Shown: positions 4,332-23,098 of the stretch, one piece after another
How positions within the stretch are numbered: position 1 is the stretch's first letter
Layout: every line of letters starts with the position of its first letter
DNA from: a virus
DNA: 40,071 nucleotides
Virus record (IMG/VR): IMGVR_UViG_3300049919_000183
Location: 1 to 40,071 of that record
Strand: one strand, 5' to 3'
The notes under the pieces: generated by a model
What the model was told of the DNA's origin: nothing
What the model saw: the letters and a program-made list of their open reading frames with translations, nothing else
Databases searched by the model: none
Made by a program: the position numbers and the translations under genes

Positions 4332-4484
4332 CCATTCGTCCTCCATTATAGGTCGAATGACCTCCTTTTCAGGTTGTTCAGTAATAAGCTCACAGCTGTA
4401 AACATCATTATGCACATCGCAAATATAGGTTTCTAGCAAGGTAGCTGACGCGCATAATATAATTGCATACAGTATATACTTCAT
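4290..4484 (-). CDS. Small exported or membrane-anchored Cys-pair protein, 64 aa
   Basis: No family is recognised. Residues 1-17 (MKYILYAIILCASATLL) form a signal peptide or anchor. C11 is preceded by Ile-Ile-Leu, which is not a good lipobox. The exported part has a Cys pair, CDVHNDVYSC, then an acidic tail rich in Glu and Pro. The start overlaps the previous stop as ATGA, so it is the last coupled gene of the leftward block. It overlaps the exonuclease gene tail-to-tail. It shares the short hydrophobic leader plus aromatic-residue/Cys-pair design with four other small proteins of this genome (19694, 5722, 33875, 34336). Confidence 0.6.
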   Translation of the reverse strand: MKYILYAIILCASATLLETYICDVHNDVYSCELITEQPEKEVIRPIMEDEWLFDMESPELIQDE

Positions 4485-5463: not shown

Positions 5464-5518
5464 TCTACTTCCATGTAAAAGGTGGGCAATATATTCTTAT
5501 TTGGATATTATGGACTAA

Positions 5519-5734
5519 TTATTGAAATTGTGCAACTTTACGTTGTTCATGCATAAAATCTTTTCTAATCTCTAGATCTTGTCTTATTTCTGGAAATCTA
5601 TTCAAGTAATTAGAGACTGTTCTTCTGTCAATTCCCAATATCTTTGCTGTTTGAGCAGAGTTTCCAAATGTGAATAAGTAGACATCTCTGACATACTCAG
5701 CCAGGACTTGATCTAGTGTCTTTATCTGTCCCAT
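5519..5734 (-). CDS. Fis-type HTH DNA-binding protein, 71 aa
   Basis: Residues about 22-46 (GNSAQTAKILGIDRRTVSNY) match the HTH_8/Fis-type helix-turn-helix found in Fis and in the C-termini of sigma54 activators, where it recognises DNA. The rest is charged and helical. It could be a late-gene regulator, a nucleoid-type protein or a packaging accessory factor; the sequence does not decide. It starts inside the last 13 bases of the lipoprotein gene upstream. A 55-base gap without a clear terminator separates it from the phosphoesterase. Confidence 0.75.
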   Translation of the reverse strand: MGQIKTLDQVLAEYVRDVYLFTFGNSAQTAKILGIDRRTVSNYLNRFPEIRQDLEIRKDFMHEQRKVAQFQ

Positions 5735-6033
5735 GAATCAATATCCACGTTGCATTTGTATTTTTTGCATTGCTTAATCATATAGGCTTTAATTTTTGCC
5801 CAGGATTCTGCGGGCATTGAAAGAGTTCTTATTCTCATATCAAACCAAGTTTGACCTTCTAATGGGTGATCATCATCTACTATAACATTGGTTCCGGATA
5901 CTGTTTTGGTGCAAATACCTTTAGACATACTTATTTCAGCGCAGACATAAACATCAGGAACACTAGCGCATGAGGTGAACAAAAGTATTAGTAGCAATAA
6001 TAAGTTCTTTTTCAGCGATACTTTTTTCATCAT
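5722..6033 (-). CDS. Lipoprotein, possible outer-membrane spanin, 103 aa
   Basis: The N-terminus has Lys residues, a hydrophobic stretch (LLLLLILLF) and the lipobox FTSC, so the protein should be lipidated at about Cys22 and anchored to a membrane facing the periplasm. The mature part begins ASVPDVYV and has two Cys pairs (CAEISMSKGIC, and CKKYKC near the end). Its start lies about 70 bases inside the preceding gene in another frame, the arrangement seen in spanin pairs. It has neither the small size nor the proline-richness of Rz1, so the spanin role is only a candidate. Two adjacent ATGs (6033, 6030) are possible starts. Confidence 0.72.
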   Translation of the reverse strand: MMKKVSLKKNLLLLLILLFTSCASVPDVYVCAEISMSKGICTKTVSGTNVIVDDDHPLEGQTWFDMRIRTLSMPAESWAKIKAYMIKQCKKYKCNVDIDSWDR

Positions 6034-6310
6034 TTGTACCTTTTAATTGGGCATTATGATTTTTAATCATTGCTGATACGAAATCCTTGCCCTGCTCATT
6101 GACTCTATAATCTATGTGCTTAAAGAATAGCATTAATTCACCTCTCTCCGCTAATTCTTCCGCTAATTTTGTTGCTAATTTTACGGCCACAAAGTTAAAT
6201 GGACCAGAAACTAAGAAAGGAAGCCACTTGATAAATGTTCCCATTAAGGCTTCCTTTATCATGATAATTCCAGCTTGCTTTACTAGCTCGACATTCTCAC
6301 TATGTTTCAT
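5963..6310 (-). CDS. Membrane-associated small phage protein of the lysis-like cluster, 115 aa
   Basis: No family can be named with certainty. Residues about 22-50 include a long hydrophobic to amphipathic stretch (FIKWLPFLVSGPFNFVAVKL), followed by charged helices through to the end. This pattern fits a protein with one membrane segment or a membrane-associated helix bundle. AGGAG precedes the ATG at 6310. Its 3' end contains the start of the lipoprotein gene in another frame, so the two might be an inner/outer pair acting across the periplasm. The 39-residue membrane peptide upstream overlaps it by 11 bases. Confidence 0.65.
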   Translation of the reverse strand: MKHSENVELVKQAGIIMIKEALMGTFIKWLPFLVSGPFNFVAVKLATKLAEELAERGELMLFFKHIDYRVNEQGKDFVSAMIKNHNAQLKGTNDEKSIAEKELIIATNTFVHLMR

Positions 6311-6419
6311 CTCGCTCCTTCTTCTTCAGACGATAATAGTCGATGGCAACTCCCAACAGTGGAATCACAGTTTTCACAAGGATCCAGGTTAGGACGCCAG
6401 CGACTACTCTCTGAATCAT
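6300..6419 (-). CDS. Single-TM micro-protein, 39 aa, holin candidate
   Basis: This short gene reads MIQRVVAGVLTWILVKTV, then IPLLGVAIDYYRLKKKERDE and Thr. It has one hydrophobic segment (about residues 5-27) and a positively charged C-terminal tail, so the tail should stay in the cytoplasm. The ATG overlaps the stop of the previous gene as TAATG and the end overlaps the next start by 11 bases, which supports real translation. Size and topology fit a small class III-type holin or a lysis regulator, but no homologous family is recognised. Confidence 0.65.
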   Translation of the reverse strand: MIQRVVAGVLTWILVKTVIPLLGVAIDYYRLKKKERDET

Positions 6420-7019: not shown

Positions 7020-8928
7020 TAATCAACAATTGCATTTGTTTTGCACCCTCAATGGAAGATGGCTGATTGTTTATGATCTGCTCAATAGCTTTTTGTTTAA
7101 GGATGGGATCAAAGATCGTACCATCAAATCGTCCATATTCATCAGCCTGGAACATCTCTGGTTTCACTAGTTCCATTTGCTGAAGAATTGTAGGTAGCAT
7201 TTTAGGATTCTTGATTGCCTCTTGGAACATTACTACACCTTTGGGGCCTAGCTCCTTTAATAACTTGTCTGCCACTAGGTCTTGCTCTGCTAGTATTTGT
7301 TCTGAGGATCTAGGTATAAGATACGCCTGAAGATTTACACCTGACATTTTAGCTCCTTGAGCACCGTAAGTAACTCCTGCTCTTTTCATAGCATCACTGG
7401 CCCTGTGGGCATATGGTAATCCATATTCATCCATCATATTGATAGCGCTTCTAACAGTACCTCTTATGATTCCCCCTTGAGGAATTGGGGCACCTGAGCT
7501 GGTAGCCGATCTTTGCTTAGACATTAAATCTCTAAGAGCAATCTTGTTTGATAATTCTTTATTTGTTTCATTATATAAAGCCACCTTATCTGATGGTAAC
7601 TCTGATAAGCCATAGGCTAAATTATCACTCGCTGTAGACTCAAGGATAGACCCAGCATGGTGACGGGCTTTTATGTCCAATGGATTCTCAAGTGGAGAAA
7701 ATTCAGACATGTAGACATTACCACGCTTTCTGATTCTGTTCATATCACCCATGGTTCCCATGTTTCTATCCTGAATCATTTGCTTATACTTATCCACGCT
7801 AGTCATTGTGGGGTCTATGTTCTGATCTACAAATTCTTGTAATGAATTTCTTTGCTTTAAGTTTTTAACAGAAGAAACGGCTTGAGTTGCAATTTCATTT
7901 GATATCTTATCAATGTCCAACTGTGCCTGATTCACTTTGTTTATCTTGTCTATTTTAGACTGATCAAAGTCCATGGTCTTAATGACATCATCAATAATTC
8001 TCTCGGCAGTTGCTACTTGGTTACTATCAAGTCCCTTCTGAGCCAATTTTTGCTTGGCAGAATTAGCCATGTCAACCATGTCAACTTCGTAGGAACCCCT
8101 AGGGATCTCTTCTATGATCATATCTTGTTGAGCACCTAGTTTTCCTAGGTCACCCTTTTTAGTTTGCCTAACATTTGATATTAATCCCGTCTCTTCATTT
8201 AGGACTGGAATTACCGGTCCATCGAGAACATCAAGAACACCTTCCTTATTAAAAGGCTGGATATACTTATTGGTATTAGCACCAACCATTTGCTCAAGGT
8301 CTTTGATTTTGCCCGACTCTTGCATCTCTTGGTAAAGAGGTTTGTTTTTAGATGTTGCTCTCAGGTACTTTTGAACCATTGACTCTTTAGACAAGGCCTT
8401 TGGTAGAGGTATTTCATTAAATACTTCTAAGCTTGGCGCTGGTAGTTTCGATCCAGCCACTATATCTGTTGTAACACCGGCAATGTTTGCAGGCATAGAA
8501 AGATTGTTAATCATTGCAGCTGCTTTAGGAAATTCTTCTGATTGAATGTCTAGTATGGGCTTATTTTCAATACCAAATGCATTGTTCACATCCTGCATGA
8601 GCAGTGATGTTCCTGCTCTATCCGAAGGAGTCAGTGTTCTAAACTCTGCCGCAGTATCAATCGGTGGTGTTTGTGATGTATTCTCACCAACGTTTTCAGC
8701 AATGTATTTGGGAATAGATCTAACTGCTTCAGTGATTGGAGTGGTTAGTATTGTGATTGGCTTTGCAAGGTATCCTAGTTTTTCAAATCCCTTGTAAACC
8801 TGGTCTAAATATTGGCTTTCTAATGATGACTCTTTATCTGGTAGTTGATCTATGGCAGCTGATACCTTTTCTAGATCCTCTATTGTTTGAGCTTCAGTGA
8901 CCATCCTGGCCAGTTCGTCCTTTGTCAT
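6994..8928 (-). CDS. Large internal virion / DNA-ejection protein candidate, 644 aa
   Basis: No enzymatic motif is seen. The protein is long, helical, rich in Gln, Lys, Asp and Met, and has no membrane span or signal peptide. Its place beside two further low-complexity structural proteins, between the tail hub genes and the lysis-like cluster, matches the ejection proteins of podoviruses such as P22 gp16/gp20 or T7 gp15/gp16, which leave the capsid ahead of the DNA and build a conduit through the cell envelope. No lytic transglycosylase signature was noticed. The assignment rests on position and composition, not on recognised homology. Confidence 0.6.
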   Translation of the reverse strand: MTKDELARMVTEAQTIEDLEKVSAAIDQLPDKESSLESQYLDQVYKGFEKLGYLAKPITILTTPITEAVRSIPKYIAENVGENTSQTPPIDTAAEFRTLTPSDRAGTSLLMQDVNNAFGIENKPILDIQSEEFPKAAAMINNLSMPANIAGVTTDIVAGSKLPAPSLEVFNEIPLPKALSKESMVQKYLRATSKNKPLYQEMQESGKIKDLEQMVGANTNKYIQPFNKEGVLDVLDGPVIPVLNEETGLISNVRQTKKGDLGKLGAQQDMIIEEIPRGSYEVDMVDMANSAKQKLAQKGLDSNQVATAERIIDDVIKTMDFDQSKIDKINKVNQAQLDIDKISNEIATQAVSSVKNLKQRNSLQEFVDQNIDPTMTSVDKYKQMIQDRNMGTMGDMNRIRKRGNVYMSEFSPLENPLDIKARHHAGSILESTASDNLAYGLSELPSDKVALYNETNKELSNKIALRDLMSKQRSATSSGAPIPQGGIIRGTVRSAINMMDEYGLPYAHRASDAMKRAGVTYGAQGAKMSGVNLQAYLIPRSSEQILAEQDLVADKLLKELGPKGVVMFQEAIKNPKMLPTILQQMELVKPEMFQADEYGRFDGTIFDPILKQKAIEQIINNQPSSIEGAKQMQLLINGNKYYGG

Positions 8929-8941
8929 GATTATTACCCAG

Positions 8942-10153
8942 CTATTTAGTTTGTAGTTTTTTTAAAATTTCTTGTTTCAATTGATCCATCTTACTATCAT
9001 CCGCCATATTTCCGCCACCCATAATAGTATTGATTTTTGCTTGGCCACGGGCCGGCAGTGTATTATCAGGAACAAAGTGCAATCTAGTAGACTGAAGCTC
9101 TCTTTGCTTAGATTGGATAGTAGATTTTGCAACCTCTATGTATGCCTTAATGATTCTAGGATTAATTTCACCAAGAATTTTACCATCAGCAAAATCTTCA
9201 AATTGACGAACATATGATTTAAATTCAGTTCCTCTGGCATTTGCATAATCAGAGTCTGAAAGCCTTTCTCCATTGTTTGCCTTAATAATAGCAAAAATAC
9301 CACTTGCAGCCTCTTCAGGGGTAATATTTGGCTTCTCTAGGATCGTAATAGATCTTTTTGCACCCTCAATTGCTTCAAGCTGTTTGTATGACTTCTCTTT
9401 TCCTTTTTTGGCTGAGTCAATAGCCGCCATGGCTTCTTCTTTGGAAACTCCACCCATCTCATTACCAATTCCTGATTGCGAACTGATTGTTTTAATATTT
9501 CCAGTAAGCTGATCTCTTGCCTTAGCAACTGATCCACCTTGAACTGTTTTTTCTCTCAATATTTGATCAGATTTAAAACCTAGCCATTCGGGTCCAAGCA
9601 GTTCATTAGTATCAACTGTCTTATATCCCTGACCTGTAACGATTGCAGGAAGAACTTCACCTGTTCTGATATTCTTAACGGTCACTGGAGCAAATTCTTT
9701 TCCACCACGACCATTTATTCCACCAAGCTTGGTTTGGTAATATGGCTTCTTTCCAATAACATCTCTTGATCTAATATTAACTGGCTGGCCGTCAACATCA
9801 ATTACAGATGTATTAGCTTTTGTAATTTCTTCTTGAGCTCCACGAGCACGAGCATATTTATCACCCTTGTCGAATAACGAGCTAACTACAGCTGGTGATC
9901 CTCCACCTAGAAGTGATAGCAATGCAGGTCCGGCTGATGCTATAGCATCTCCAATATACATTGCTGATTGACCATCCATTCCACCGTACTCTTCTTTTGC
10001 CTCAGATGTTTCTGCAAGCTCTCTTGCTGGTTCTTCTTGAGCTTCTTCAGGATAATCTGTGATAGGCAGATTTTGCCCGTCAAACATAAACTGTGGCTTA
10101 ATCTGTTCAACTGCCAATCTTTTTTTAATTGCTTCATATGTGTCTGGCATCAT
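8942..10153 (-). CDS. Internal virion / ejection protein candidate, 403 aa
   Basis: No family is named with confidence. The first 60 residues are acidic and Pro/Glu-rich. A short hydrophobic Gly/Ala segment follows (AIASAGPALLSLLGGG, about residues 69-84), after which the protein is mixed and Lys/Gln-rich to a basic C-terminus (ILKKLQTK). A hydrophobic Gly/Ala patch in an otherwise soluble virion protein is common in ejected proteins that insert in membranes. The start has AAGGA eight bases upstream. It abuts the 113-residue gene with no gap and is followed by the 644-residue candidate, suggesting one ejection module. Confidence 0.58.
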   Translation of the reverse strand: MMPDTYEAIKKRLAVEQIKPQFMFDGQNLPITDYPEEAQEEPARELAETSEAKEEYGGMDGQSAMYIGDAIASAGPALLSLLGGGSPAVVSSLFDKGDKYARARGAQEEITKANTSVIDVDGQPVNIRSRDVIGKKPYYQTKLGGINGRGGKEFAPVTVKNIRTGEVLPAIVTGQGYKTVDTNELLGPEWLGFKSDQILREKTVQGGSVAKARDQLTGNIKTISSQSGIGNEMGGVSKEEAMAAIDSAKKGKEKSYKQLEAIEGAKRSITILEKPNITPEEAASGIFAIIKANNGERLSDSDYANARGTEFKSYVRQFEDFADGKILGEINPRIIKAYIEVAKSTIQSKQRELQSTRLHFVPDNTLPARGQAKINTIMGGGNMADDSKMDQLKQEILKKLQTK

Positions 10154-11170: not shown

Positions 11171-11551
11171 CTATAAAAAGACACGTATCTCATAGCTAAC
11201 ATTACCAGCAATCAATCCACGATTAGTAAGACTGATATTGGTTGCATCCCAGCCAGTTCTCTGCAAAATACCAAGAGCCGATGGAGTTGATGCCACATTG
11301 TCAATAACGATCCACCCAGAAGGAACTTGACCCAGGTTGTGAGCGAGGGTGGCAGATGCATTGTCAGCTATTGTAAATGATATATCCACAAAAGTTATAA
11401 CACCGGGAATTGTTGAATCTACCGTCGAACTACTAGCAATATCCCTAAATGTAGAATTTAGAGTTTTAGCAGTATAGTTAAATTTTTCAACCATATCTTC
11501 AGCCGTATCCGCATAAGGTATCTTTACACCTAATAATGGCTTATTTAACAT
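11171..11551 (-). CDS. Small beta-rich tail protein, fibre-tip-like, 126 aa
   Basis: Residues 1-35 are helical. From about residue 50 the protein is beta-rich and has the HNLGQVPSGWIVIDN pattern, often seen in C-terminal domains of short phage tail or head fibre proteins, ending in a hydrophobic strand (YEIRVFL). It overlaps the end of the tail hub gene by 11 bases. It is likely a minor tail or decoration protein, but the exact location in the virion is not shown by the sequence. Confidence 0.6.
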   Translation of the reverse strand: MLNKPLLGVKIPYADTAEDMVEKFNYTAKTLNSTFRDIASSSTVDSTIPGVITFVDISFTIADNASATLAHNLGQVPSGWIVIDNVASTPSALGILQRTGWDATNISLTNRGLIAGNVSYEIRVFL

Positions 11552-13625
11552 TTTTATCTCTAAGCTGAATTACTGTTGTTGATACTTCATATCCACTAAT
11601 ATTTAAGTCTTGATCTACTACGTTGTTTGCGAATCTAAATGAAAATGATTGGTTTTGTATTACATCGAGGTTTTTATGTATTGTCTTTGTATTTTCTGAA
11701 GACATATCTGCCGTGTATGGACCTTTAAATAAAGAGTCAGACCAATCAAGGAAATATGTAAGCTGGATTATCTGGCCAGCATTGTTGAAAGAATAGATTC
11801 TTATATCTGTTGCTTTTTTAAGAAGACCTGGCTCCTGAAGATCAAACCATGCTGTATCGATATATGCATCTATGGCTTCACCAGAGTCGTTTTTAGCTTC
11901 TACAAACTTACGAGCTTTAGTTGGGCTAAAGAATCTAATTTCTCCAGAGTTATCAGTTGTAATGCCTGCAGAAGCATTTATGGCATCCCATATAAATAGC
12001 TTTTTGTATTCATAGTTAAAAACTACTATTCCCTTATCTGTCCAGAATAAATACTGGTCTAGTGTATTATTCATGGTTGATCTAGTTAGCGAAGGATCGA
12101 TAGTTTTGAAAAATGGATCTAGCTCAGTAGATGCCTTTACGCATGTGAAACCATTTGTGGCATAGACTCCGTCGTGTCCTTGAAACATAACAAGCTTATC
12201 TACTGATAAAATTGATTTAAATGATAGACACCCTGTTTCATTGGTTTCAACTTTTCTTAGTGAGTATTGCCCTGGTATTAAGATTCCATCTAAAGTAAAT
12301 ACAGACTTATCCTTAAATACAATCATGGAATCTTTAACTCTTTCTAGTCCTGTTATTTTTCCGTCATAGGTATTTCCTATTAACTGTCTATTTGACTCTG
12401 TAAAGTTAAAACCTAAATCACCGGTAGATAAATCAGAGTACATGACAATGTCGTTATTTATGTAATTTGTTTCTTGATTTTCAAAGTCAAAAAAAGAAAT
12501 AACATTACCGCAAACAACTTGATATCCATATGTGCAAATAAATTCGCATGTTGGAGGTCTTAATTTAGAAGTTGTTATATCATAAAAATCTGAAAGGAGT
12601 ATGTCTCTATCTAGAGCGTATGTAGCTTGGCCAGTTTGAGTGGCTAAAGAATTATCAACAAGAAAGCCATTAAGAGAGCTAATATTTGTTGTATACCCTG
12701 TCGTCTCTGACTCTGAAAACAACACCCTTAAAACAACAGCCCCATGGATATTTACAATAACTGGAGGACCAATAGTAATTGAAATTGATATCTGCTTAGT
12801 GTTAAAAGACAATGATGTAAATGTAATTTCTTTCAAAAGAGTATCTACACTATCAATTGTTAATATTATAAATTCATCGGAAAAAGATCTAGATGGGGTG
12901 GCTAGGTCACTAATGACTATTCCCACACCTCTATTTCTAAAGACAACCTTTGCACCGGCTACAATGTCGGCTGATATTGTATCATAGGGCAAAACAAGTG
13001 ATGTTGAATTTAAAACTATTGGAGTAGTGCTTATTTCAGATCTTATATATGATCCGTTAAATCCAAGATTGCTTGGTGGTTTGATGGTTATATCATTCAC
13101 GCCAGTAGAGCAGGTGTTTATATTCGATGGTCCGTAAATAATATTACCTGCAGCATCTATGTATTCAAAAAAAGTTAAAACATAACCATCGGATCCACCA
13201 GGAGAAATGCTGGTTTCTGGTGTAGGAAGACCAGCTCTATATATAGAATTTCCGTCATAAACAGCTGTTCCAACCTGGCCAGATATATGAGTAAAAATAA
13301 AATCATTTAAATATTCGGCACCAGAAATTAAACTTGTAGGAGAAGTACTTGGATCAAAGAACTTGGTAATAGTTTTTCTTACGCCATTTTTAACTGAAAT
13401 ATAGTTAGAACCAAGCCTATAAAAATACTCACCAAGAGATTTAATAAAAATAACATCTGTGTATGTATCAACAAAGGAAGTATCTTCAGCCGTCCCAGGT
13501 CTTTTGACATACTCGCCATTAATGTTAATCATAACATTCTTGGCATCTCTCAGCTGTTCTGGATCACGAAGAAGGTTGTTTGATTTTTGATCAATACCAC
13601 CAGCTCCAAATATTTTTAAGCCCAT
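11541..13625 (-). CDS. Tail hub/nozzle protein, P22 gp10- or T7 gp12-like, 694 aa
   Basis: This is a long beta-rich protein whose start (KIFGAGGIDQKSNNLLRDPE, then a KNVMININGEYVKRPGT segment) is typical of podovirus tail hub/nozzle proteins, in which the gene product lists DNA-channel loops and states a 'rough' N-terminal beta-propeller. It has no signal peptide, membrane span or coiled coil. It follows directly the adaptor gene, overlapping it by 10 bases, the order seen in P22-like and T7-like tails. Family membership is judged from the pattern of the first 60 residues and from position. Confidence 0.75.
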   Translation of the reverse strand: MGLKIFGAGGIDQKSNNLLRDPEQLRDAKNVMININGEYVKRPGTAEDTSFVDTYTDVIFIKSLGEYFYRLGSNYISVKNGVRKTITKFFDPSTSPTSLISGAEYLNDFIFTHISGQVGTAVYDGNSIYRAGLPTPETSISPGGSDGYVLTFFEYIDAAGNIIYGPSNINTCSTGVNDITIKPPSNLGFNGSYIRSEISTTPIVLNSTSLVLPYDTISADIVAGAKVVFRNRGVGIVISDLATPSRSFSDEFIILTIDSVDTLLKEITFTSLSFNTKQISISITIGPPVIVNIHGAVVLRVLFSESETTGYTTNISSLNGFLVDNSLATQTGQATYALDRDILLSDFYDITTSKLRPPTCEFICTYGYQVVCGNVISFFDFENQETNYINNDIVMYSDLSTGDLGFNFTESNRQLIGNTYDGKITGLERVKDSMIVFKDKSVFTLDGILIPGQYSLRKVETNETGCLSFKSILSVDKLVMFQGHDGVYATNGFTCVKASTELDPFFKTIDPSLTRSTMNNTLDQYLFWTDKGIVVFNYEYKKLFIWDAINASAGITTDNSGEIRFFSPTKARKFVEAKNDSGEAIDAYIDTAWFDLQEPGLLKKATDIRIYSFNNAGQIIQLTYFLDWSDSLFKGPYTADMSSENTKTIHKNLDVIQNQSFSFRFANNVVDQDLNISGYEVSTTVIQLRDKNVK

Positions 13626-14470
13626 TCTGTGTACTCAATAATTGGAGGCATAAAAGAGTCTCCTGAGTTATCTGAAAACATTTCTGCAATTTGATCTAGT
13701 TGTTCTTTTGATAGTATCGATCCGATGTTTATATCAGAACTAGAAATTCTAGCCTGTATAAGTTTTTCCAACATAAAAATTAAAGAAGATTCACACTCAT
13801 CTGGAAGTTCCGAGTGTGTACTGGTATATTCACCAGGAACCACGATCATTCCGGCCGTCATTCCAGTTGTTGATGCTACTGTCAGCAAGCTGTCTGTTTG
13901 AACAAAACCAATGTTTTTTACAATAATATTACCAGCAGAATCAACCACAGTAAGAGAGTCGGCAATCGATGACATATCTATATAGTCGTCGTTTAAGCTA
14001 ATTACAGTAGGTGATACCGATAATATACTTCCATAGCTAACTGATAGCTTGGGTAGTTTTTTTGTATAAGAAATTAAAACATTAGTTAGGTATGTCTGAT
14101 AAGGAGAAAAGATAATTTGCTTTTTAGCAACAAAATACCCCTGTTTAAGGCCTCTATCTTTCTCAGATATCTGTCTAACTGGGTTAAATGATTTCTGAGC
14201 ACCAGCACCTAAAATCTGCTGAACAGAAGAAAGTGCATTTACTGCATAAATGTCAAAAGGAAGATCGTAGGTATCAACACCCGGGGTGATCGTTAGTTCC
14301 TCTGTTCCCCTAAAAATATTAGACTTGATGTTTCTGTTATAAAGCTCGCCCATGATAAAATCTTGTGAACGATTAAGAAGCTGACAGCATAATAAGTCAG
14401 TAATTGCTTCGGCATCTACTGTGTTTGTATTGGTCTTGGCTTCGTTAATAAGATATTTTGTTTGTCTCAT
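13616..14470 (-). CDS. Head-to-tail adaptor (gp4/gp11-like), 284 aa
   Basis: The N-terminal 60 residues are helical and contain a CCQLLNRSQDFIMGEL segment. They are followed by beta-rich sequence with TPGVDTYDLPFDIYAV, a strand-turn pattern common in podovirus tail adaptor and tubular A proteins. Such proteins form a ring between portal and nozzle. Its length of 284 residues and its place just upstream of the hub/nozzle gene support this. GGAG stands five bases before the ATG, overlapping the end of the preceding gene. Confidence 0.72.
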   Translation of the reverse strand: MRQTKYLINEAKTNTNTVDAEAITDLLCCQLLNRSQDFIMGELYNRNIKSNIFRGTEELTITPGVDTYDLPFDIYAVNALSSVQQILGAGAQKSFNPVRQISEKDRGLKQGYFVAKKQIIFSPYQTYLTNVLISYTKKLPKLSVSYGSILSVSPTVISLNDDYIDMSSIADSLTVVDSAGNIIVKNIGFVQTDSLLTVASTTGMTAGMIVVPGEYTSTHSELPDECESSLIFMLEKLIQARISSSDINIGSILSKEQLDQIAEMFSDNSGDSFMPPIIEYTEWA

Positions 14471-14875
14471 TTAAACTCCGAAGCTTTGGTTTGCCATATT
14501 AGCGTAAGCCGCCTGAGTTTTTGCCATTCTTATTTTTTCATTATCGATTTTTTCTTGTTCTGCTGCTGCTTTAGCTTTTTGAGCCGCTTCAATCTGAGAT
14601 AGGATTAATCCGCCTGCTACGGCGTAAGGCCCTCCACCGGACATTCCTGCTGGTCCTAGCATTGATGTAACACCACCAGAAGTTAATGCACCTGATAGCC
14701 CGCCAGACTGAGCACCGTAAGCAGTAGCTCTTGCGACATCAGGGGATAAAAATGGTTCTTTCGTTTCTGGCTCGGACTCTGGTTTCTTAGAATACGATTG
14801 CTGAAAAGCAGGTAAATCCATAATAGAATTGTATTGAAGATCTTGTTTCTTTAAATCTGGCGTGTAATAGGCCAT
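14471..14875 (-). CDS. Gly/Ala-rich internal virion protein candidate, 134 aa
   Basis: The first 45 residues are polar and Pro/Glu-rich. The middle is Gly/Ser/Ala-rich with mild hydrophobicity (SGGLSGALTSGGVTSMLG), and the end is an Ala/Lys/Glu helix (AAQKAKAAAEQEKIDNEK). This composition resembles the 210-residue protein at 10495 and fits a small ejected or capsid-internal protein. AGAGG precedes the ATG, and a candidate extended -10 promoter lies just upstream at 14900-14908. Confidence 0.55.
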   Translation of the reverse strand: MAYYTPDLKKQDLQYNSIMDLPAFQQSYSKKPESEPETKEPFLSPDVARATAYGAQSGGLSGALTSGGVTSMLGPAGMSGGGPYAVAGGLILSQIEAAQKAKAAAEQEKIDNEKIRMAKTQAAYANMANQSFGV

Positions 14876-14899
14876 CCGTAACCTCTTTTTTTTTATTTT

Positions 14900-14908
14900 A
14901 TTATAACA
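14900..14908 (-). promoter_or_regulatory. Candidate extended -10 promoter within the late block
   Basis: On the minus strand the sequence TGTTATAAT (TGn plus a perfect -10) lies between the stop at 14916 and the start at 14875. No convincing -35 stands 16-18 bases upstream. It could give extra transcription of the ejection and tail genes. Confidence 0.35.
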
Positions 14909-14915
14909 ATAAGCT

Positions 14916-15278
14916 TTACAAAGTAGAAGCTAAATTCCATAAATCGTCTATGTTTTCTGGTGTTAAACCAATCGAGGCACCGATCATGTTAACTGTGTCT
15001 GATGATCTTTCAAATACCGTCGAGTACTCCCACGCAACATGAGCCAGCGTCTTCAGTGGCTCCTCTTGGGCGTCTATTGCAGTATCTATTAGACCCAATG
15101 ATAACCCAGAAAGAACCAGTGCCTGTCTCAATTGCCTTGGGCTTACGTCTGGAATCTTGATATTTGGGGCCATTGCATATATTGCCAATTCCTTATTAAT
15201 GACATCCTCGGATGTTCCATCAGGAAATTCCAATTCGCCTATCTTAACGCCTTCATAATTTAAAATATCCCTAATCAT
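14916..15278 (-). CDS. Tail-fibre companion protein, 120 aa
   Basis: The C-terminal half (SPRQLRQALVLSGLSLGLID, then a PLKTLAHVAWEYSTVFERS segment) is the well-known helical module that stands at the end of, or next to, many phage tail proteins. Its role may be in tail assembly, but this is not established. I take the ATG at 15278, which has AGGA six bases upstream and lies seven bases after the fibre gene stop; a further in-frame start at 15329 would lie inside the fibre gene. The N-terminal part (KIGELEFPDGT) is strand-like. Confidence 0.68.
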   Translation of the reverse strand: MIRDILNYEGVKIGELEFPDGTSEDVINKELAIYAMAPNIKIPDVSPRQLRQALVLSGLSLGLIDTAIDAQEEPLKTLAHVAWEYSTVFERSSDTVNMIGASIGLTPENIDDLWNLASTL

Positions 15279-15285
15279 ATTTTTC

Positions 15286-18042
15286 CTATAGTGATACGTT
15301 GCAAATACCCGCAGCTCCACCAGTTCCACCAGTGATACCCACGTTTAAACCACCAGTCCCACCAGCCGCTCCAACTGTTCTGCTTCCCGTAGAGGTAGAA
15401 ATATTGAAAAGCTCTATAGCTCCACCAGTTCCACCACCACCGCCTCGTCCACCGAGTCCAGTTCCGAATCCGTTACCGGCATTTCCACCAGTTCCACCAT
15501 TCGCAGTTATAAGATTGGTAATAGTTGGTCCTGTTTTATTTGCATACATTATATAAACATATCCACCACCGGCACCAGCTCCACCGCCTCCACCGCCAAC
15601 GTTTCCTGCTCCACCGTTCGCACCATTTCCACCATTTCCGCCATTGCAGACAATTACACCAGAAGCAGTCGATGCACTAGTTATTATATTTTGTGCGTAG
15701 ATAGCGATGATACCACCACCAGCTCCACCTCCGCCTCCGCCTCGGCCATTGTTTACACCGTCACCGCCGCCAGCTGAACCGCCAGGAGCACCAGCTCCAC
15801 CGCTTATTAGAACCTGACCTCTAAGTATATCGTAGGCAATTCTGTTAAATTCTACGCCTGTTGTTGCTGTACTAGCCGCTCTTGAGGCACCCCCGGCGTT
15901 TGGAGTTCCAGCTCCACCTTGCCCGCCGGCTCCAGAGCCACCACCGTTGGCGTTTACAAGAGTACCGGAAGCACCAGCCTGAGCACCAACGCCCGTTGTA
16001 CCAGTAGCACCGGCACCACCATTGGCGCTACCCCCAAGAGTAGCACTGGCTAATGCACCAATAAGGCCAGCTCCAGCTTGAGTTATTGTACTGTTACCAT
16101 TACTTCCACTTCTACGTATTGCATTCGCAGGAGCATTTGAAAGGTTTAATGTTTTACAAAAAATTCTATATCCTGCCGTTGTCAAAGCGGCTCCAGCATT
16201 AAGAGTGAGGGTGTTATAGAAAACATCCTGAGTTAGTGTAAGTGGGCCAGAAAGAGTTAAGTTTCCATTTGTACCGGAACCAAAAAACTCTTCCCATGTT
16301 GGTGCGATATTATCTACGTAAGCTGTTGTTGCAATCTTTGTTGAGTTATCACCTGGAGACTGAGTTGTTGCAGTCGCTCCAGCCGTTGAAGACCAGTCGA
16401 TAACAGGAGTAGATCCATCATTAGCAAAAAGTCTTCTGTCTATGTAGTCTAATGCTAAGACCTCACTATCGTCTGCCAAATATCTTGATTGCCAATTTAC
16501 AGACTCAGTTCCAGCGATATCTAACAGTGCCCTTGTGTCATATTGAACAGAAGTTAGCGAAGCGCTGTCTTTTAACAATCTAGCTTCAAAATCTATCGAC
16601 TCTTCATTGGCACCGTCAAACATCATCTTTGAATCTAAATTAATAGCAGTTCCGCCATCATATCCAATAGTCTTTGCTCTTATATTGTTCCAGTTCTGCC
16701 CACTGGCACCGATATCATAAACACCATCCGTGTCGGGAAGTAATGTTTGATTAATAGATGTTCCAGTAAGGTTAGAAAGAGCATCGTTTGCAGGAGTATA
16801 TCCAAGTAATGGTTGGTAAGCCGCCAAATAGCCAACTAGGGCATCAAAAATAGCTTTTACGGTTGGAAATAAAATATTGCTTCCAGTGTTACCCGTGAAG
16901 TTTGTAGTTTTATTTGCAGAATTTTCTTTTAAATTTATAGCTGTTTGTTGAGCTGTAGAAACAGGTTTGTTCGCGTCACTTGTGTTATCCACGTTAGATA
17001 GACCGACATCGTTTTTATCTAAAATTACAACGCCAATCTTGCCAGCAACGGAACTAACGGCATCAGTGTTCGGAATTCTTTCCCAAACAGAGCCGTTGTA
17101 AATGACATAATCACCAAGAGCAAATGTTTGTGGCCCAGATCCAAGGTTTTGCGTACCAGGAACGCTTACTATGTATTGATCTTTATTTGTACCAATACCA
17201 TCTGCTAATGTCGGAGTATTAGTAGTCGCATTCCATGCACCAAGGTATGTAAAAATAGTTGTAGGTATTTGTGATACCGGAACCTGACCAGCACCATTCA
17301 ATGAGGCATACCCACTTGGTACTCCCTTATTGGCAGTGTCTTCCTTTAGGTTTAATGCTGTTTGAGTAGCTGTTGAAACTGGCTTATTCAGGTCAGAAGT
17401 ATTGTCTACATTGGCCAAGCCAACGTCTGCCTTTACAATACCAGTTGGAGAATTAATCACAGGAGAAGTTAAAGTTTTATTTGTGAGAGTCTGTACGCCT
17501 GTTAGAGTTACTGCACTTGAGGCATCCTGCTTAAGATCTAGAGCTGTTTGAGTAGCAGTAGATATAGGTTTTGCAAGGTCTGAGGTATTATCCACATTTC
17601 CAAGCCCAACCATTGATTTAGTTATTCCTGAAACTGTTCCAGTAAAAGTAGGAGATGCTAGGTTAGCTTTTAAATCTAAAGCTGTTTGTTGGGCTGTGCT
17701 GACTGGTTTATTGGCATCAGATGTATTATCCACACTACCTAAACCAACCTGTGCTTTAGTTACACTATGAGGATTGGCCGTGCTCGCGATATGTGAGTCA
17801 ATATTTACGTGTGTATTTACTCCGATATTAGAGAGCAAAGTGTGGTCTGATGGGGCGTTAGAACCAGGAGGTCCCTGTGGGCCAGTGGCTCCGGTTGCGC
17901 CCGTTGGACCCTGAGTACCCACGGCAGCTATTGTAACATCGTTTGCAGCCCCTTGTAATACGGTTACTTCAATAGGAGCATCTTGCTGTACAGTTACCTC
18001 ATTAGGTGGCGTGGCCGTTACTATGACTACAGTATCGCTCAT
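15286..18042 (-). CDS. Tail fibre with collagen-like stretch, repeats and Gly-rich tip, 918 aa
   Basis: Probable receptor-binding tail fibre. Residues about 42-60 are collagen-like Gly-x-y triplets. Four copies of a motif with VGLxxVDNTSDxxKP and a following STAxQTAxxLK lie at about 94-126, 140-171, 203-234 and 342-373; this motif is usual in phage fibres, as is the DNSTKIATTAYVD segment further on. From about residue 690 to the end the chain is very Gly-rich with runs of six Gly. Such stretches can pack as polyglycine II helices, as in the tip adhesins of T-even-like phages. The start overlaps the previous stop as ATGA. The repeats differ in DNA mostly at third codon positions. Confidence 0.88.
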   Translation of the reverse strand: MSDTVVIVTATPPNEVTVQQDAPIEVTVLQGAANDVTIAAVGTQGPTGATGATGPQGPPGSNAPSDHTLLSNIGVNTHVNIDSHIASTANPHSVTKAQVGLGSVDNTSDANKPVSTAQQTALDLKANLASPTFTGTVSGITKSMVGLGNVDNTSDLAKPISTATQTALDLKQDASSAVTLTGVQTLTNKTLTSPVINSPTGIVKADVGLANVDNTSDLNKPVSTATQTALNLKEDTANKGVPSGYASLNGAGQVPVSQIPTTIFTYLGAWNATTNTPTLADGIGTNKDQYIVSVPGTQNLGSGPQTFALGDYVIYNGSVWERIPNTDAVSSVAGKIGVVILDKNDVGLSNVDNTSDANKPVSTAQQTAINLKENSANKTTNFTGNTGSNILFPTVKAIFDALVGYLAAYQPLLGYTPANDALSNLTGTSINQTLLPDTDGVYDIGASGQNWNNIRAKTIGYDGGTAINLDSKMMFDGANEESIDFEARLLKDSASLTSVQYDTRALLDIAGTESVNWQSRYLADDSEVLALDYIDRRLFANDGSTPVIDWSSTAGATATTQSPGDNSTKIATTAYVDNIAPTWEEFFGSGTNGNLTLSGPLTLTQDVFYNTLTLNAGAALTTAGYRIFCKTLNLSNAPANAIRRSGSNGNSTITQAGAGLIGALASATLGGSANGGAGATGTTGVGAQAGASGTLVNANGGGSGAGGQGGAGTPNAGGASRAASTATTGVEFNRIAYDILRGQVLISGGAGAPGGSAGGGDGVNNGRGGGGGGAGGGIIAIYAQNIITSASTASGVIVCNGGNGGNGANGGAGNVGGGGGGAGAGGGYVYIMYANKTGPTITNLITANGGTGGNAGNGFGTGLGGRGGGGGTGGAIELFNISTSTGSRTVGAAGGTGGLNVGITGGTGGAAGICNVSL

Positions 18043-18411: not shown

Positions 18412-19059
18412 TCACTCCCCGAATAATGGAAACTCAGGTTTTTCACCTGTAAAATATATTTTCCTAAGCTCTAGTTTATAGTTTTTACCGTATTGTTCAA
18501 TCATTTTGTTTTCATATATTTCCAGCAACCAAGAATTTAGCATGGTTTTTGGCATAGAATTAAGCTCTAGTCCGTAAATTATCTTAGAAGATGTTTCTCC
18601 AACTTCCTTGTTTATAGCTATAATCATATTTGCTAAATAAAAAGGAAAAAACACCCTACTCAACATTGAGTAATTATAAGAACCCCAAGCATAATAGTTG
18701 GCCAGATTATACGGTAATCTGTCTGTCCAATCACTAACAACAGCCGGATATGCGCCCCAATTTTGCTTTAACTGCCCCCATATAATTTTATGATGAACGG
18801 TATTGTAGATAAAACTAGATGCCATCATTCCGCTTATTTCGTCATGAGAAACGCCCCTCTCTGTATGGTGAAACGATCTAAGATATAAACCATTTGGCAA
18901 TTTTGATCTTTGCATTTTTTCTAGGAAATAAGTCATTCCCTTTGCATTTCTCTTGTCCAATATATACTGAGCAAGAAATAACCCAGAATTTTCAGTGGTC
19001 TGGTCAGACTCTGTAACGATACCAAACCCAGGCTTGAAGTATTCCACTAAGCTCCCCAT
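18412..19059 (-). CDS. Unknown protein between endolysin and fibre genes, 215 aa
   Basis: No family is recognised with confidence. It is rich in aromatic residues (Tyr, Trp, Phe) and His, with a conserved-looking RSFHHTERGVSHDEISGMM segment near residues 61-80 that could hold acidic and His active-site residues, and a helical C-terminal half. There is no signal peptide. The composition would fit an alpha-helical glycan-handling enzyme, but this is only an impression. It overlaps the amidase gene by 13 bases and precedes the fibre-attachment gene, so it may act at the cell envelope. Confidence 0.5.
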   Translation of the reverse strand: MGSLVEYFKPGFGIVTESDQTTENSGLFLAQYILDKRNAKGMTYFLEKMQRSKLPNGLYLRSFHHTERGVSHDEISGMMASSFIYNTVHHKIIWGQLKQNWGAYPAVVSDWTDRLPYNLANYYAWGSYNYSMLSRVFFPFYLANMIIAINKEVGETSSKIIYGLELNSMPKTMLNSWLLEIYENKMIEQYGKNYKLELRKIYFTGEKPEFPLFGE

Positions 19060-19694
19060 TGCCTTAACTGTTTAATTAGGAATTTTAAATATTCTTCTTT
19101 GGGTATAAAGTCTGAGATGTTCCCTATAAAGAATGGTTCGACCAATATTTTAGGACAAAACTTAGATATCCTTAGGGATTTAACACCTCTGTCGCTTTCA
19201 TCTAGTATTTTTTTACCCTTAGTCGCAGGTCTTCTTATTTTCTTGTTAAAATCTTTATTTAAATTAGCGGCAAACTCTTCGGCAAAAACATAAGATTCCT
19301 TATCGCCATCGACAACTAGCACCTCGCAACCATTTGCTGTGGGTGTATCTGCATCATTCAAGTGCATCTGGATAATTAAGTCTGGATTGGTGGCCATTGC
19401 TGATAACATTGATTCGACACTACTAGAGCCATAGTGGCACGAAATGTTTAATCCTGCTTTTTCTAGTCCCCTCATAACCCAAGTGTTATATTCCACTTCA
19501 GTTGTACCATTCCCCTTAGCACCAGAGTCATTTCCCCCATGTCCACGAGCTATGGCTATTTTCATTTTCTTAGTTGGAAAATTATCAACTTCTTCCTTTG
19601 TTGGAACCTCTTGAACTGGTGGTGCCGGTGGAGTTTTTGTCACCTGAGTGTCATCTGAACGTCGTCTGAATAGTTTTTTAATCCAGTTCCACAT
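19047..19694 (-). CDS. N-acetylmuramoyl-L-alanine amidase (Amidase_3), endolysin
   Basis: This 215-residue zinc amidase cuts the bond between MurNAc and L-Ala in peptidoglycan. Zinc ligands are H52 in ARGHGGND, E66 in TTEVEYN and H111 in QMHLND; the catalytic Glu is E186 in ILVEPFF. Residues 1-45 are a basic amphipathic start (MWNWIKKLFRRR) and a Pro/Thr-rich linker, with no classical signal peptide, so a holin is probably needed for release. The ATG overlaps the stop of a 35-residue lipoprotein as TAATG. It lies far (over 12 kb) from the cluster of small membrane proteins that includes the holin candidates. Confidence 0.9.
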   Translation of the reverse strand: MWNWIKKLFRRRSDDTQVTKTPPAPPVQEVPTKEEVDNFPTKKMKIAIARGHGGNDSGAKGNGTTEVEYNTWVMRGLEKAGLNISCHYGSSSVESMLSAMATNPDLIIQMHLNDADTPTANGCEVLVVDGDKESYVFAEEFAANLNKDFNKKIRRPATKGKKILDESDRGVKSLRISKFCPKILVEPFFIGNISDFIPKEEYLKFLIKQLRQWGA

Positions 19695-19801
19695 TATCTT
19701 GTCTCACATTTGTAAAGGTTAGCGTCCACCAACTCACAGTCTTCAACATAGATAGTTGATGAACATGAAGATAGAATTAAGAGTAGGATTAAATATTTCA
19801 T
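19694..19801 (-). CDS. Minimal lipoprotein, 35 aa
   Basis: This gene reads MKYLILLLILSSCSST, then IYVEDCELVDANLYKCETR. The lipobox is LSSC with Cys13, so the mature part would be only 23 residues, with one Cys pair (CELVDANLYKC). Start and stop both overlap neighbouring genes by a single base (TAATG at 19799-19803 and at 19692-19696), which strongly supports translation. Its place next to the amidase suggests a lysis helper such as a very small outer-membrane spanin, but it lacks the Pro-rich region of Rz1. It belongs to the group of small Cys-pair exported proteins of this genome. Confidence 0.8.
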   Translation of the reverse strand: MKYLILLLILSSCSSTIYVEDCELVDANLYKCETR

Positions 19802-21375
19802 TAATATGATCCTTGGCAGATAAGTGTCCCGAGCACGTCACTCTGGGCTCCATTTCTTCCTTGAGATCCAAAGTTTAAGCTCGAGCAGTTTTCGCATCTG
19901 TAGGCATTTGTTGCGTTGGTATAAAAGACTGGCTCTAGCGAAAGATTATTGTAGGCAACATTGCATTTAAGCTTTGTATAAGTCCTAACGGTATTCAATG
20001 AGTATTGACCTGCAGATGCTCTAGTAATACTTGAAACTGCCGTTCCAATCTGATCTATAAAACATGGGGAGCTGGAGCATATTGTCTCTAAATCAGTCGT
20101 CCCAAAACTTACACTAAAGGTATCGACCCTTCCGGCATACCCTGGTACATTTGGAGTACCAGCAAATGTACCAATGATAAATGGGCTATGAGCTGCAGTG
20201 TAATCTGTAGATGATTTTTGACAAACAATAGAAGTTGGCCCAGTAGTATTTGCACCACTGTCATTTTGAGCATACCAAGCAAGAGTAGTACTATTCATTG
20301 TATCAGTTAGATAAGTTAATCTTTGAGCTGCTCCGGAGTGAGTAAATTCACAATTTGGAGCTGTTGTAAAGATTCCTGCTTGAAAAGTACAGCTATAAGG
20401 AACAGATACAGTACAGTTGCCGTTTATCCAATCAACATTTTCTCCACTAACAACACCAGCTGCATCAACCCTTGCACTGAAAACAGTGGTAGTAGCAATA
20501 GGGCTTGAGTTAGCTTGAACCCATGCGGATGTGTTTGAGGATAGTCCAAGAATAGGAATTCTTATTTGATCAGTTGAAAATATTGCACCGGGAGCATATA
20601 GGCCAACGAGAGTTGTAGTTGGAGTTAGGTTGGGCGCACTTGATGTTAATCCTGCATGGTAAAAATTAGTTAAACTTGTAGCTGGTGCCGTTACAAATGC
20701 ATTTGTATTTGAACCGTTTCCATCTGCCTGCCCAAATCCAACCTTGTCTCCTGGTGCAGATGTAGTGTTTTGCAAAATTAATCTTGAAGCGTCTATTGTA
20801 TATCCCGAAGGAATAGATATGAAAGAAGTTCCAGCTGCCGGTGTACCTACGGCAAAGCTGCATTTAATTAACATATCGGCACCGATCAGCTTCCATTTAC
20901 ACTGGTTGCTTGCTGGTGAAACAGTCCCAAATGCTGTACCGATGGATGGTGTATATGATACCCAATCTGTTCCAGTTGATAAATTCCCAAACCCATAAGT
21001 CCAAGCAGTTCCATTATAAGTAGCGATTGAATTAAGATCCGTATTATAAATCGTTAAACCTGTCGCAGGAGCAGCAATTGCATTCATCTGTGCAGTCGTC
21101 ACTCTTGGAGTTAAAATACCTTGAGTAGTAGACTGTGCATCGAAGATTGCCGAAGCAGCCCTAGTTCCTCCAAGAACAAGTGATGTTCCAGATGCAGCTC
21201 CTATCCCGCTTAATGTCAGCGTGGTTCCTGCTCTAGTGCCAGTAAATGAACCATAATTAGTTTTAAACGTTGTGGGGAAAGTGGACTCCCCGCTAACTCT
21301 AGATGATGTTGGAGGAAGACCTGCGGTTAGCGAAGTTGTCCAAAATAACAATACACTTAATAAATATCTTTTCAT
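19801..21375 (-). CDS. Secreted fibre-like Cys-rich protein, 524 aa
   Basis: The protein begins with a Sec-type signal peptide (MKRYLLSVLLFWTTSLTA, cleavage expected after Ala18), continuing GLPPTSSRVSGES. Residues about 40-130 are fibre-like, with the TTQGILTPRVTTAQMNAI motif and TATYNGTAW-type repeat sequence common in phage and bacterial trimeric fibres. The rest is beta-rich and contains 12 Cys in pairs or clusters (for example ICSSSPC and RCENC), as expected for a protein that folds in the periplasm. I take the ATG at 21375, with GGAG upstream; a TTG at 21387 is poorer. It is coupled by TAATG to the 35-residue lipoprotein. A virion role outside the cytoplasm or a cell-surface role is possible. 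Confidence 0.78.
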   Translation of the reverse strand: MKRYLLSVLLFWTTSLTAGLPPTSSRVSGESTFPTTFKTNYGSFTGTRAGTTLTLSGIGAASGTSLVLGGTRAASAIFDAQSTTQGILTPRVTTAQMNAIAAPATGLTIYNTDLNSIATYNGTAWTYGFGNLSTGTDWVSYTPSIGTAFGTVSPASNQCKWKLIGADMLIKCSFAVGTPAAGTSFISIPSGYTIDASRLILQNTTSAPGDKVGFGQADGNGSNTNAFVTAPATSLTNFYHAGLTSSAPNLTPTTTLVGLYAPGAIFSTDQIRIPILGLSSNTSAWVQANSSPIATTTVFSARVDAAGVVSGENVDWINGNCTVSVPYSCTFQAGIFTTAPNCEFTHSGAAQRLTYLTDTMNSTTLAWYAQNDSGANTTGPTSIVCQKSSTDYTAAHSPFIIGTFAGTPNVPGYAGRVDTFSVSFGTTDLETICSSSPCFIDQIGTAVSSITRASAGQYSLNTVRTYTKLKCNVAYNNLSLEPVFYTNATNAYRCENCSSLNFGSQGRNGAQSDVLGTLICQGSY

Positions 21376-21376
21376 T

Positions 21377-23098
21377 TTATGCTCCAAAAGTTACGCTCAC
21401 AACTTGGTTGGTTCCTGCCTCTGCAATTACAGATAAGTTTCCAGCAACCGCAAAGTCCTCTGCTCTAGAGGGTTCCATTTTTATCCCCGAAGTAATTGTT
21501 GCTACTCCTCCGAGCTTAATTCTAATATTTTCTACGTTATCCCCGTCAGCCGATACCTTCATCCATTTAGCATTGGCAGGTGCCGTAAATGTTTGTGCAA
21601 CGGTAGTTAGGTTTGTAATTTCTTGGTATGAGGCAGCGAGTGCCCCTGGAGTTACCGGAACAGGTGCCTGATTAGATGCCAGGGTTACCGATAAAGAATT
21701 GGCAGCCGTCTGTATTCCGAGGGTCGCTGGAAGTTGAGCAATAAGAGAAGTCAATCTTTGTGCGATTCTTTGCAATCTTCCGTTTAGCCCTGAAGATGCC
21801 GTATCGGTTGCTGGAGCTGTTTCTGTAACTGCACCAAGAAGCACACCGTTGGCTGTTTGAGTAGTCTCAAGGGAAAACCCCGTAATAGCTGCTGGTGGTG
21901 TAATTGCGGCTAGCTGTAGAGCCGTAAGAACCACAGGAACAGATGCGGCTTCAAGGGCCTGACCTAATGCAGGGGTCTTTGTATCAATCGATTGTACGGC
22001 AGTTTCGACATCTAATTGAGTAGTTTCAAGTGCAAAGCCCGAGATTGCAGCTGGAGGAGTTATGGCAGCTATTTGAGCTGCTGTTAAAACAACCGGAACT
22101 GAAGCCGCCTCAAGAGCCTGTCCAAGTACGGGTGTTTTTAAGTCTATAGATTGAACCGCTGTCTCTACATCAAGCTGAGTTGCCTCTAGGGCAAAGCCAG
22201 TAATCGCCGCAGGAGGTGTTAATGTAGCTATTTGGGCAGCTGGTAATACCACAGGAGTAGATGCTGCCTCTAGTGCTTGTCCTAGTGCAGGAGTTTTTGT
22301 ATCGATAGATGCATCAATAACTCTAATCTGCTCTGCTTTTGCTAAGAGGTCTGTATCGTGAACCAAAGCTTCATCGTTTGCATTTACGCCAATGTAGTTA
22401 CCAGATCCATCCCCAATTCTCATTGAGTCAAAACTTGCACCCATATCTGTTGTCTGGATATTTATATCTCCAGCAGTAATATTAATTTCTGTACCTGAAG
22501 CGGCCACAATCTCCACTGGAACTGCAGCTGTATTACCTGGAACGCCAGTGTCTTTATTAACAGGAACTACTACGCCGTCTTTTTGAAAGAATAATTTAGA
22601 AGGAAGTGGCTCGTTATTAGATGGATCCGCAGTGTCTTCTTCTACAGTCGTAACAATACTATCCTTAAGGAATGTTGTTGGTCCGGCGCTTACACTTAGG
22701 TCACCATCTGACGAATATTTTGGAGATACTGATCTTAAAATATCAAATGTATCTGCTATCGCTATTGGAAATTCTGCTGATATAATAAATGTATCAGCGT
22801 CTACTATTTTAATAATTGAAATTTCTTCTCTATCAGAAGCTCCAGATGTCATTCTCATGAACCATCCCTGCTTTGCTCCGTGTGCAGTAGACTTAATCAG
22901 CTTTCTAACCGATCCAGCCTCTATTGCATGAGCTAGAGATACTTCTGTTATACCGTGGATCATTACATCGGCAGCACCTTTCTTTCCAGAAATTTCCTGA
23001 ATTGATAAATGTTGCATACTATCGCCCGAATTTTCAATATCCGGTACTGGTGCGTTACTGTAAAGAAAAGATTTAGATCCTTTGATTGATTCTGACAT
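21377..23098 (-). CDS. Virion-associated repeat protein, 573 aa
   Basis: The function is unknown; it is probably structural. Residues about 1-125 form an N-terminal domain. From residue 264 a 53-residue unit is repeated: 264-316, 317-369 and a shorter third copy 370-414, each starting SIDxKTP, then LGQALEAAS, PVVL, TPPAAI and ending QLDVETAVQ. The rest is Ala/Thr-rich and beta-like, ending VVSVTFGA. It begins the sub-block that follows the capsid terminator and so may depend on its own promoter in 23099-23280. AAGGAG stands about ten bases upstream of the ATG. Confidence 0.7.
   Translation of the reverse strand: MSESIKGSKSFLYSNAPVPDIENSGDSMQHLSIQEISGKKGAADVMIHGITEVSLAHAIEAGSVRKLIKSTAHGAKQGWFMRMTSGASDREEISIIKIVDADTFIISAEFPIAIADTFDILRSVSPKYSSDGDLSVSAGPTTFLKDSIVTTVEEDTADPSNNEPLPSKLFFQKDGVVVPVNKDTGVPGNTAAVPVEIVAASGTEINITAGDINIQTTDMGASFDSMRIGDGSGNYIGVNANDEALVHDTDLLAKAEQIRVIDASIDTKTPALGQALEAASTPVVLPAAQIATLTPPAAITGFALEATQLDVETAVQSIDLKTPVLGQALEAASVPVVLTAAQIAAITPPAAISGFALETTQLDVETAVQSIDTKTPALGQALEAASVPVVLTALQLAAITPPAAITGFSLETTQTANGVLLGAVTETAPATDTASSGLNGRLQRIAQRLTSLIAQLPATLGIQTAANSLSVTLASNQAPVPVTPGALAASYQEITNLTTVAQTFTAPANAKWMKVSADGDNVENIRIKLGGVATITSGIKMEPSRAEDFAVAGNLSVIAEAGTNQVVSVTFGA
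21857..22309 (-). repeat. 53-residue tandem repeats in the 573-aa protein
   Basis: Two full copies of 159 bases and one partial copy of 135 bases encode nearly the same amino acids. Comparing the first and second spacer-matched copies base by base, most differences fall at third codon positions, so the copies were kept alike in protein but not in DNA. Confidence 0.85.

Follow-up and report, generated by a model that had tools for sequence, protein, structure and literature searches.

The window, meaning the whole stretch of DNA analysed here, is a 40,071-base IMG/VR contig from an uncultured, short-tailed phage. Pfam-family matches among its genes include an SU10-type major capsid protein, an SU10-type adaptor and a P22-type portal, and it carries no tRNA genes. 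The adaptor is encoded at 13616-14470 and a nozzle-type protein at 11541-13625. One of its loci encodes a fibre-like protein with a predicted Sec signal, followed by a very small lipoprotein and an endolysin. The features of this locus and its neighbours are as follows:

21377-23098, minus strand: structural-type gene of 573 aa, upstream of the fibre; 17 of 20 contigs have a homologue near their exported fibre.
21382-21385, minus strand: Shine-Dalgarno GGAG, 6 nt before the fibre ATG, read from the sequence.
19801-21375, minus strand: predicted Sec-exported fibre, 524 aa, 12 Cys; an open reading frame with relatives at the same locus.
21322-21375, minus strand: signal peptide MKRYLLSVLLFWTTSLTA, predicted by rule, with predicted cleavage before GLPPTSS; its sequence varies and its character is kept.
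21001-21321, minus strand: conserved mature N-terminal segment and stem, residues 19-125, from alignment with L047.
20506-20970, minus strand: 'TDWVSYTP' fibre module, about residues 136-290, common to the Sec-less fibre of G008/L016.
20164-20487, minus strand: 'SGENVDWINGNC' (SGEN) module, about residues 297-404, a modelled beta domain with pLDDT about 85.
19804-20142, minus strand: C-terminal cap, about residues 412-524, with six conserved Cys and a C-x-G end; it also caps a T7-like virion tail fibre.
19694-19801, minus strand: 35-aa lipoprotein with a TAATG junction on either side; its mature part, CSSTIYVEDCELVDANLYKCETR, contains C-x9-C; from the sequence and relatives.
19047-19694, minus strand: endolysin, Amidase_3, no signal peptide, basic amphipathic N-terminus (PF01520, PHROG).
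18412-19047, minus strand: next gene, no assigned function; probable GTG start in a TAGTG junction, not the ATG at 19059.
15286-18042, minus strand: separate Sec-less tail fibre, 918 aa, 3 Cys, from the open reading frame and its annotation.

The first-pass annotation had described a 524-residue, 12-Cys fibre-like protein with a Sec signal, and this description is borne out. The N-terminus, MKRYLLSVLLFWTTSLTA followed by GLPPTSS, has two basic residues, a hydrophobic core, zero acidic residues and Ala at -1, which is a start of the cleavable type. Prediction of signal peptides used only simple rules (n-, h- and c-regions, with a small residue at -1); as far as sequence can show, the start of this protein is a real Sec-type signal. 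The phage's own tail fibre at 15286-18042 has no such signal and only three Cys, as had been claimed. Phage particles are built in the cytoplasm and are normally fitted with fibres there, which makes an exported phage fibre odd.

Relatives were collected through the major capsid protein, the 21377-23098 gene or the fibre, and a search with the post-signal segment added more. A Sec-type start is found on the fibre of 20 IMG/VR contigs (the window, G001-G007, G009-G011, G013-G020 and L053), and the proposal of a fibre that passes through the Sec system is supported, the predicted signal being conserved far beyond the window phage. The exported fibre usually comes right after the homologue of 21377-23098 and upstream of the lysis genes, the homologue being directly or one gene upstream in 17 of the 20. 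When open reading frames of at least 150 aa in 11 related contigs were screened by the signal rules, 18 of 265 were flagged and all ten fibres of this kind (10/10) were among them, which exceeds chance. The signal is followed immediately by a '[GNS]LPPT(S/T/A/G)S(K/R)' segment in 13 fibres, all of which have a signal of 15-23 aa with zero acidic residues; in eight of these the search pattern had itself required the Ala at -1, which is unbiased in the other five. Mean identity among these 13 is 0.45 in the signal versus 0.60 in the following segment. Shine-Dalgarno-like sequences stand at the fibre start in 18 of the 20 contigs. Three matches to the anchor pattern (L052, L062 and L063) were dropped as not being fibres with the '[GNS]LPPT' segment.

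Signal-less counterparts also exist. The close relative G008 has a signal-less fibre at the same locus, sharing a module with the window fibre, and has no exported fibre. The cultured phages 11b, DLP_6, phiRKBJ001 and Lbo-JY46 carry related modules without a Sec-type start. Neither INPHARED nor PLSDB contains a match to the fibre N-terminal segment, and GTDB genomes scanned with the fibre and its module gave none. An additional Sec-less fibre accompanies the exported one in the window, G004 and G005, and further appendage-like genes, shorter or lower-scoring, are present in G001, G003, G013 and G014. By composition and homology, no other long fibre is encoded in G002, G007, G009 and G016, which are nearly full-length (37-42 kb) contigs that are possibly incomplete and in which a short or unrecognised receptor-binding protein could be overlooked. 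Two relatives show variations on the theme. G018 (L075) encodes two fibre-like proteins with signal-type starts, at 7746-9878 (710 aa) and 14570-15481 (303 aa, 10 Cys). G010 (L035), whose capsid identity is only 36%, encodes a 292-aa fibre-like protein at 2143-3021 (minus strand) with a signal-type start and a different N-terminal segment, VKALKDNFDVNGKIQFLTGTVDP.

The window fibre itself has no Pfam, PHROG, NCBIfam or PDB family match, and a PDB sequence search returned chance-level matches, mostly to maltose-binding protein tags, with nothing MAT-like among them. It is tied to the tail-fibre class through relatives: the fibres of G007 and G009 match PHROG tail-fibre families, and the window and G007 fibres have the N-terminal segment, the SGENVDWINGNC module and the C-terminal cap in common. 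Part of the G007 fibre matches tailspikes and tail fibres of Streptomyces and Stenotrophomonas phages, and those examined are signal-less. The clearest link is found in the T7-like phage L042, whose 1322-aa tail fibre (2362-6330, plus strand) begins with the T7 gp17 N-domain (PF03906, E 2.7e-22) and has a body 62% identical over 933 columns to residues 60-979 (920 aa) of the G007 fibre. The same body is therefore found in two settings, joined to a signal-less base of the virion type and following a signal and short segment. Profile searches found neither PF03906 nor another known virion-attachment N-domain in the window fibre, which has the 'GLPPTSS' segment there instead; these failed tests lower the case for a T7-type fibre, not for a protein that binds receptors like one. 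By the matches of its relatives, the body of the exported fibre is a genuine receptor-binding fibre. The L042 tail fibre can be described as a chimera, the T7 gp17 N-domain joined to a body seen on the exported fibre of an SU10-like phage.

The shortest relative, L047 (251 aa), consists of signal, stem and cap only. It is 54% identical to the window fibre over residues 1-125 and 38% over residues 403-524, and the window fibre follows the L047 plan with two inserted modules. Between the window and G005 the major capsid proteins are 93% identical and the fibres 35%. Judged from these alignments, stem and cap are kept and the middle is exchanged, making the body modular and fast-changing. The full-length AlphaFold model was too poor (pLDDT 38), and the C-terminal model was usable for about the first 100 residues. 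In Foldseek comparisons the modelled SGEN module has weak similarity to tail-fibre tips, tailspike ends and H-type lectins, the best E-values being 0.08 in PDB and 1.6e-4 in BFVD.

The 12 Cys of the window fibre lie at positions 159, 172, 321, 329, 342, 385, 433, 438, 471, 494, 497 and 520. The Cys count of the mature part is even in 18 of the 20 exported fibres. In copies of the SGEN module C342 and C385 are invariant, and C321 and C329 are both present in seven copies, both absent in two and never single. C159 and C172 occupy mirrored positions of a predicted hairpin (by eye), where the Sec-less G008 fibre has F and G. This pairing pattern speaks for disulfides in the exported fibres. The signal-less T7-like fibre of L042, however, keeps the same six Cys in its cap, so disulfides alone do not explain export, and the even Cys count, which the first-pass annotation had offered as a sign of periplasmic folding, is not supported as evidence in that form.

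Downstream of the fibre, both expected TAATG junctions were confirmed, the first joining the fibre stop to the lipoprotein ATG and the second the lipoprotein stop to the amidase ATG. Overlaps of stop and start by one base are widespread among compact phage operons and unremarkable by themselves. The proposed coupling of the fibre to a genuine mini-lipoprotein and the endolysin is kept in relatives: G014 has both TAATG junctions, G006 has the first with an ATGA overlap as the second, and G005 and G007 have the same fibre-lipoprotein-amidase order with looser junctions. In the window and these four contigs (G005, G006, G007 and G014) the mini-lipoprotein lies directly downstream of the fibre gene; the window copy has a lipobox-like LSSC. 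Its 23-aa mature part is identical in the window and the nearest relative, G005, with 9 synonymous and 0 amino-acid changes, and these synonymous-only differences mark it as a genuine gene under strong purifying selection, in which the C-x9-C is kept; the comparison with G006 gives 12 synonymous and 3 amino-acid changes. The mini-lipoprotein is absent from G009 and G013, both of which have the same fibre N-terminal segment, and a role as the fibre's obligate partner or anchor was rejected for this reason. An Rz1-type o-spanin was also rejected, as the mature 23 aa contain no proline and the neighbours are a fibre and an amidase. The window encodes a second lipoprotein (5722-6033, minus strand; 103 aa, 5 Cys), overlapping the gene at 5963-6310, and its start, CASVPDVYVCAEISMSKGIC, has a lipid-Cys and then C-x9-C as in the mini-lipoprotein. 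Homologues of it, or similar lipoproteins, occupy a comparable place in most relatives.

The endolysin is identified by PF01520 (E 6.9e-14) and a PHROG endolysin family (E 1.3e-21). This signal-less enzyme has a basic amphipathic start, MWNWIKKLFRRR, which recurs in the otherwise diverged enzymes of relatives (MKIINWIKNLFKK, MKWLIRLLEALF, MKWLIKLIRSLFK) and is possibly a membrane-binding or export-related helix. The gene that follows, 18412-19047, probably starts at the GTG of the TAGTG overlap with the amidase stop, since its homologue in L013 starts there with MEYFSP. On the other side of the fibre, the product of 21377-23098 contains internal near-repeats (ALGQALEAAS.PVVLTAAQ...) and a kept C-terminal domain, and is the best candidate for the exported fibre's virion partner. 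In L047 a GIY-YIG homing endonuclease-like gene (2219-2776, plus strand; by eye) separates the 21377 homologue from the exported fibre, as an insertion.

The sequence strongly supports a cleavable-type signal, a conserved docking-type segment ('GLPPTSS...'), virion-fibre modules and translational coupling to lysis genes; predicted export, a receptor-binding body and late co-expression with the lysis genes are well supported. The reading ranked first, to which we give a probability of about 40%, is that this is an exported receptor-binding fibre that becomes attached to virions at lysis. It corresponds to one of three fates that the first-pass annotation had offered, the others being attachment in the periplasm and display on the infected cell. 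The fibre would leave through the host Sec pathway late in infection, oligomerise (probably as a trimer) and oxidise in the periplasm, and remain in that compartment, away from the virions in the cytoplasm. Once the envelope is breached by the amidase and its partners, the fibre would dock on the tail via its N-terminal segment, probably together with the 21377-23098 product, and act as the main or a second receptor-binding fibre. The 35-aa lipoprotein would have its own role in the envelope as part of the lysis cassette, or would mask receptors in the manner of T5 Llp, and the fibre would be independent of it. Docking on the virion is favoured by the signal-less replacement in G008 together with the genomes that have no other long fibre, by the position of the fibre locus between capsid-side and adaptor/nozzle genes and next to the 21377 homologue, and by a kept N-terminus with variable tips, as the contrast between capsid and fibre identity in the window and G005 illustrates. 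Export is the new element in an otherwise known kind, the phage receptor-binding fibres. Several points count against attachment at lysis. No precedent for a Sec-travelling virion fibre was found in the open-access literature searched, and in the proposed scheme virions and exported fibre would be separated by compartment up to the moment of lysis. A receptor-binding protein may already be present on the virion, since the window, G004, G005 and others encode a Sec-less fibre, and the company of lysis and lipoprotein genes fits an envelope role as well.

Receptor masking is a doubtful explanation but the next in rank. Here the exported fibre would bind the newly made receptors of its own host, LPS glycans or outer-membrane proteins, from the periplasmic side or during lysis, and thereby keep the dying cell and its debris from trapping progeny or accepting other phages; the mini-lipoprotein may help, in the way Llp does for T5. 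The body is of the kind that binds a host receptor on the T7-like virion of L042, one module is lectin-like (by weak model similarity), the fibre gene is coupled to lysis genes, and a receptor-binding protein followed by a small lipoprotein is the T5 pb5-Llp gene order. Expression late and with the lysis genes, however, would exclude few superinfecting phages, and G007, G009 and similar genomes would be left with no recognisable virion fibre. Moreover, the lipoprotein is not matched to the fibre's receptor, because its mature part is unchanged between the window and G005 while the fibres are 35% identical.

Display of the fibre on the infected or lysogenic cell, for cell-cell or cell-surface adhesion, is unlikely. 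A signal peptide, a conserved N-terminal end and variable tips are also the design of MAT fibres (PMC10769870), and PblB, a tail-type protein of prophages for which a signal peptide is predicted, functions as an adhesin (PMC4508584). Against these parallels, the gene is late and lysis-coupled, no integrase was recognised among the annotated window genes, the fibre has no lipid, LPXTG or barrel anchor and no MAT-like PDB match, and the close match between a relative's body and a T7-like virion fibre indicates the phage's own host as the target. An ordinary cytoplasmic tail fibre with a chance hydrophobic N-terminus, the alternative named in the first-pass annotation, or else a never-cleaved hydrophobic virion anchor, has in its favour the rule-based signal prediction and the Sec-less fibres with shared modules (G008 and the T7-like L042), yet it is very improbable given Sec-type starts in 20 contigs and in all 13 '[GNS]LPPT' fibres, Shine-Dalgarno-like sequences at 18 of 20 fibre starts, and a signal less conserved than the next segment, the reverse of what an embedded anchor would lead one to expect. 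The probability that these four readings leave over belongs to explanations not considered.

The accepted view is that the virions of tailed phages are finished in the cytoplasm. Export of a conserved receptor-binding fibre would either break this rule or represent a new form of phage receptor management at lysis, and in both cases some of the proteins by which uncultured phages recognise their hosts would be catalogued as secreted proteins without assigned function. The combination of signal and segment is a signature by which such exported fibres can be found. If attachment at lysis is true, the last step of tailed-phage assembly would be extracytoplasmic. An N-terminal segment this short would also give studies of fibre attachment a portable handle. 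The wider proposal, a class of short-tailed phages that finish the virion outside the cytoplasm at lysis with the short N-terminal segment as docking tag, is put forward tentatively and should be held a little more loosely than the reading of this one fibre.

The exported fibre can be compared with several known systems. The major capsid and adaptor proteins of the window match Pfam families of SU10 (Kuravirus), in which long and short tail fibres are fixed to the adaptor and nozzle of the virion (PMC9509320). No homology between SU10 fibres and the window fibre was found, and the available part of that source reports no export (PMC9509320). T7-like tail fibres (PF03906; L042) resemble the exported fibre of G007 in a body that is 62% identical over 920 aa and in six C-terminal Cys; they differ in that the T7-type attachment domain is replaced by a signal peptide and short conserved segment in the exported fibres. 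By analogy, the nearest kinds are the Bdellovibrio MAT fibres, PblB and the T5 pb5-Llp gene order. MAT fibres are Sec-exported, phage-type fibres with a kept base, an N-terminal domain of about 130 aa and swapped tips (PMC10769870). The window fibre likewise has a predicted signal peptide, a kept base and swapped tips, but MAT fibres are encoded by bacterial genes, whereas phage genes and a segment of about 40 aa kept between distant members are found here. No sequence match was found between MAT fibres and the exported fibre, and Peptidase_S74, the tip of one of the two MAT subfamilies, is absent from the window genome. Bdellovibrionota were considered as host because of the MAT resemblance, and no supporting evidence was obtained. 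PblB of streptococcal prophages is similarly a tail-type phage protein that combines a predicted signal peptide with a role at the host surface (PMC4508584), but it is a Gram-positive prophage protein of unrelated sequence and an adhesin to human cells (PMC4508584). T5 Llp is a periplasmic lipoprotein with a Cys11-Cys58 disulfide (PMC9586334). Like the superinfection-exclusion lipoproteins T5 Llp and Cor, the window lipoprotein lies directly downstream of a receptor-binding protein gene, falls in the small size class and has paired Cys; its mature part is 23 aa rather than 61, and the resemblance is a likeness without demonstrated homology.
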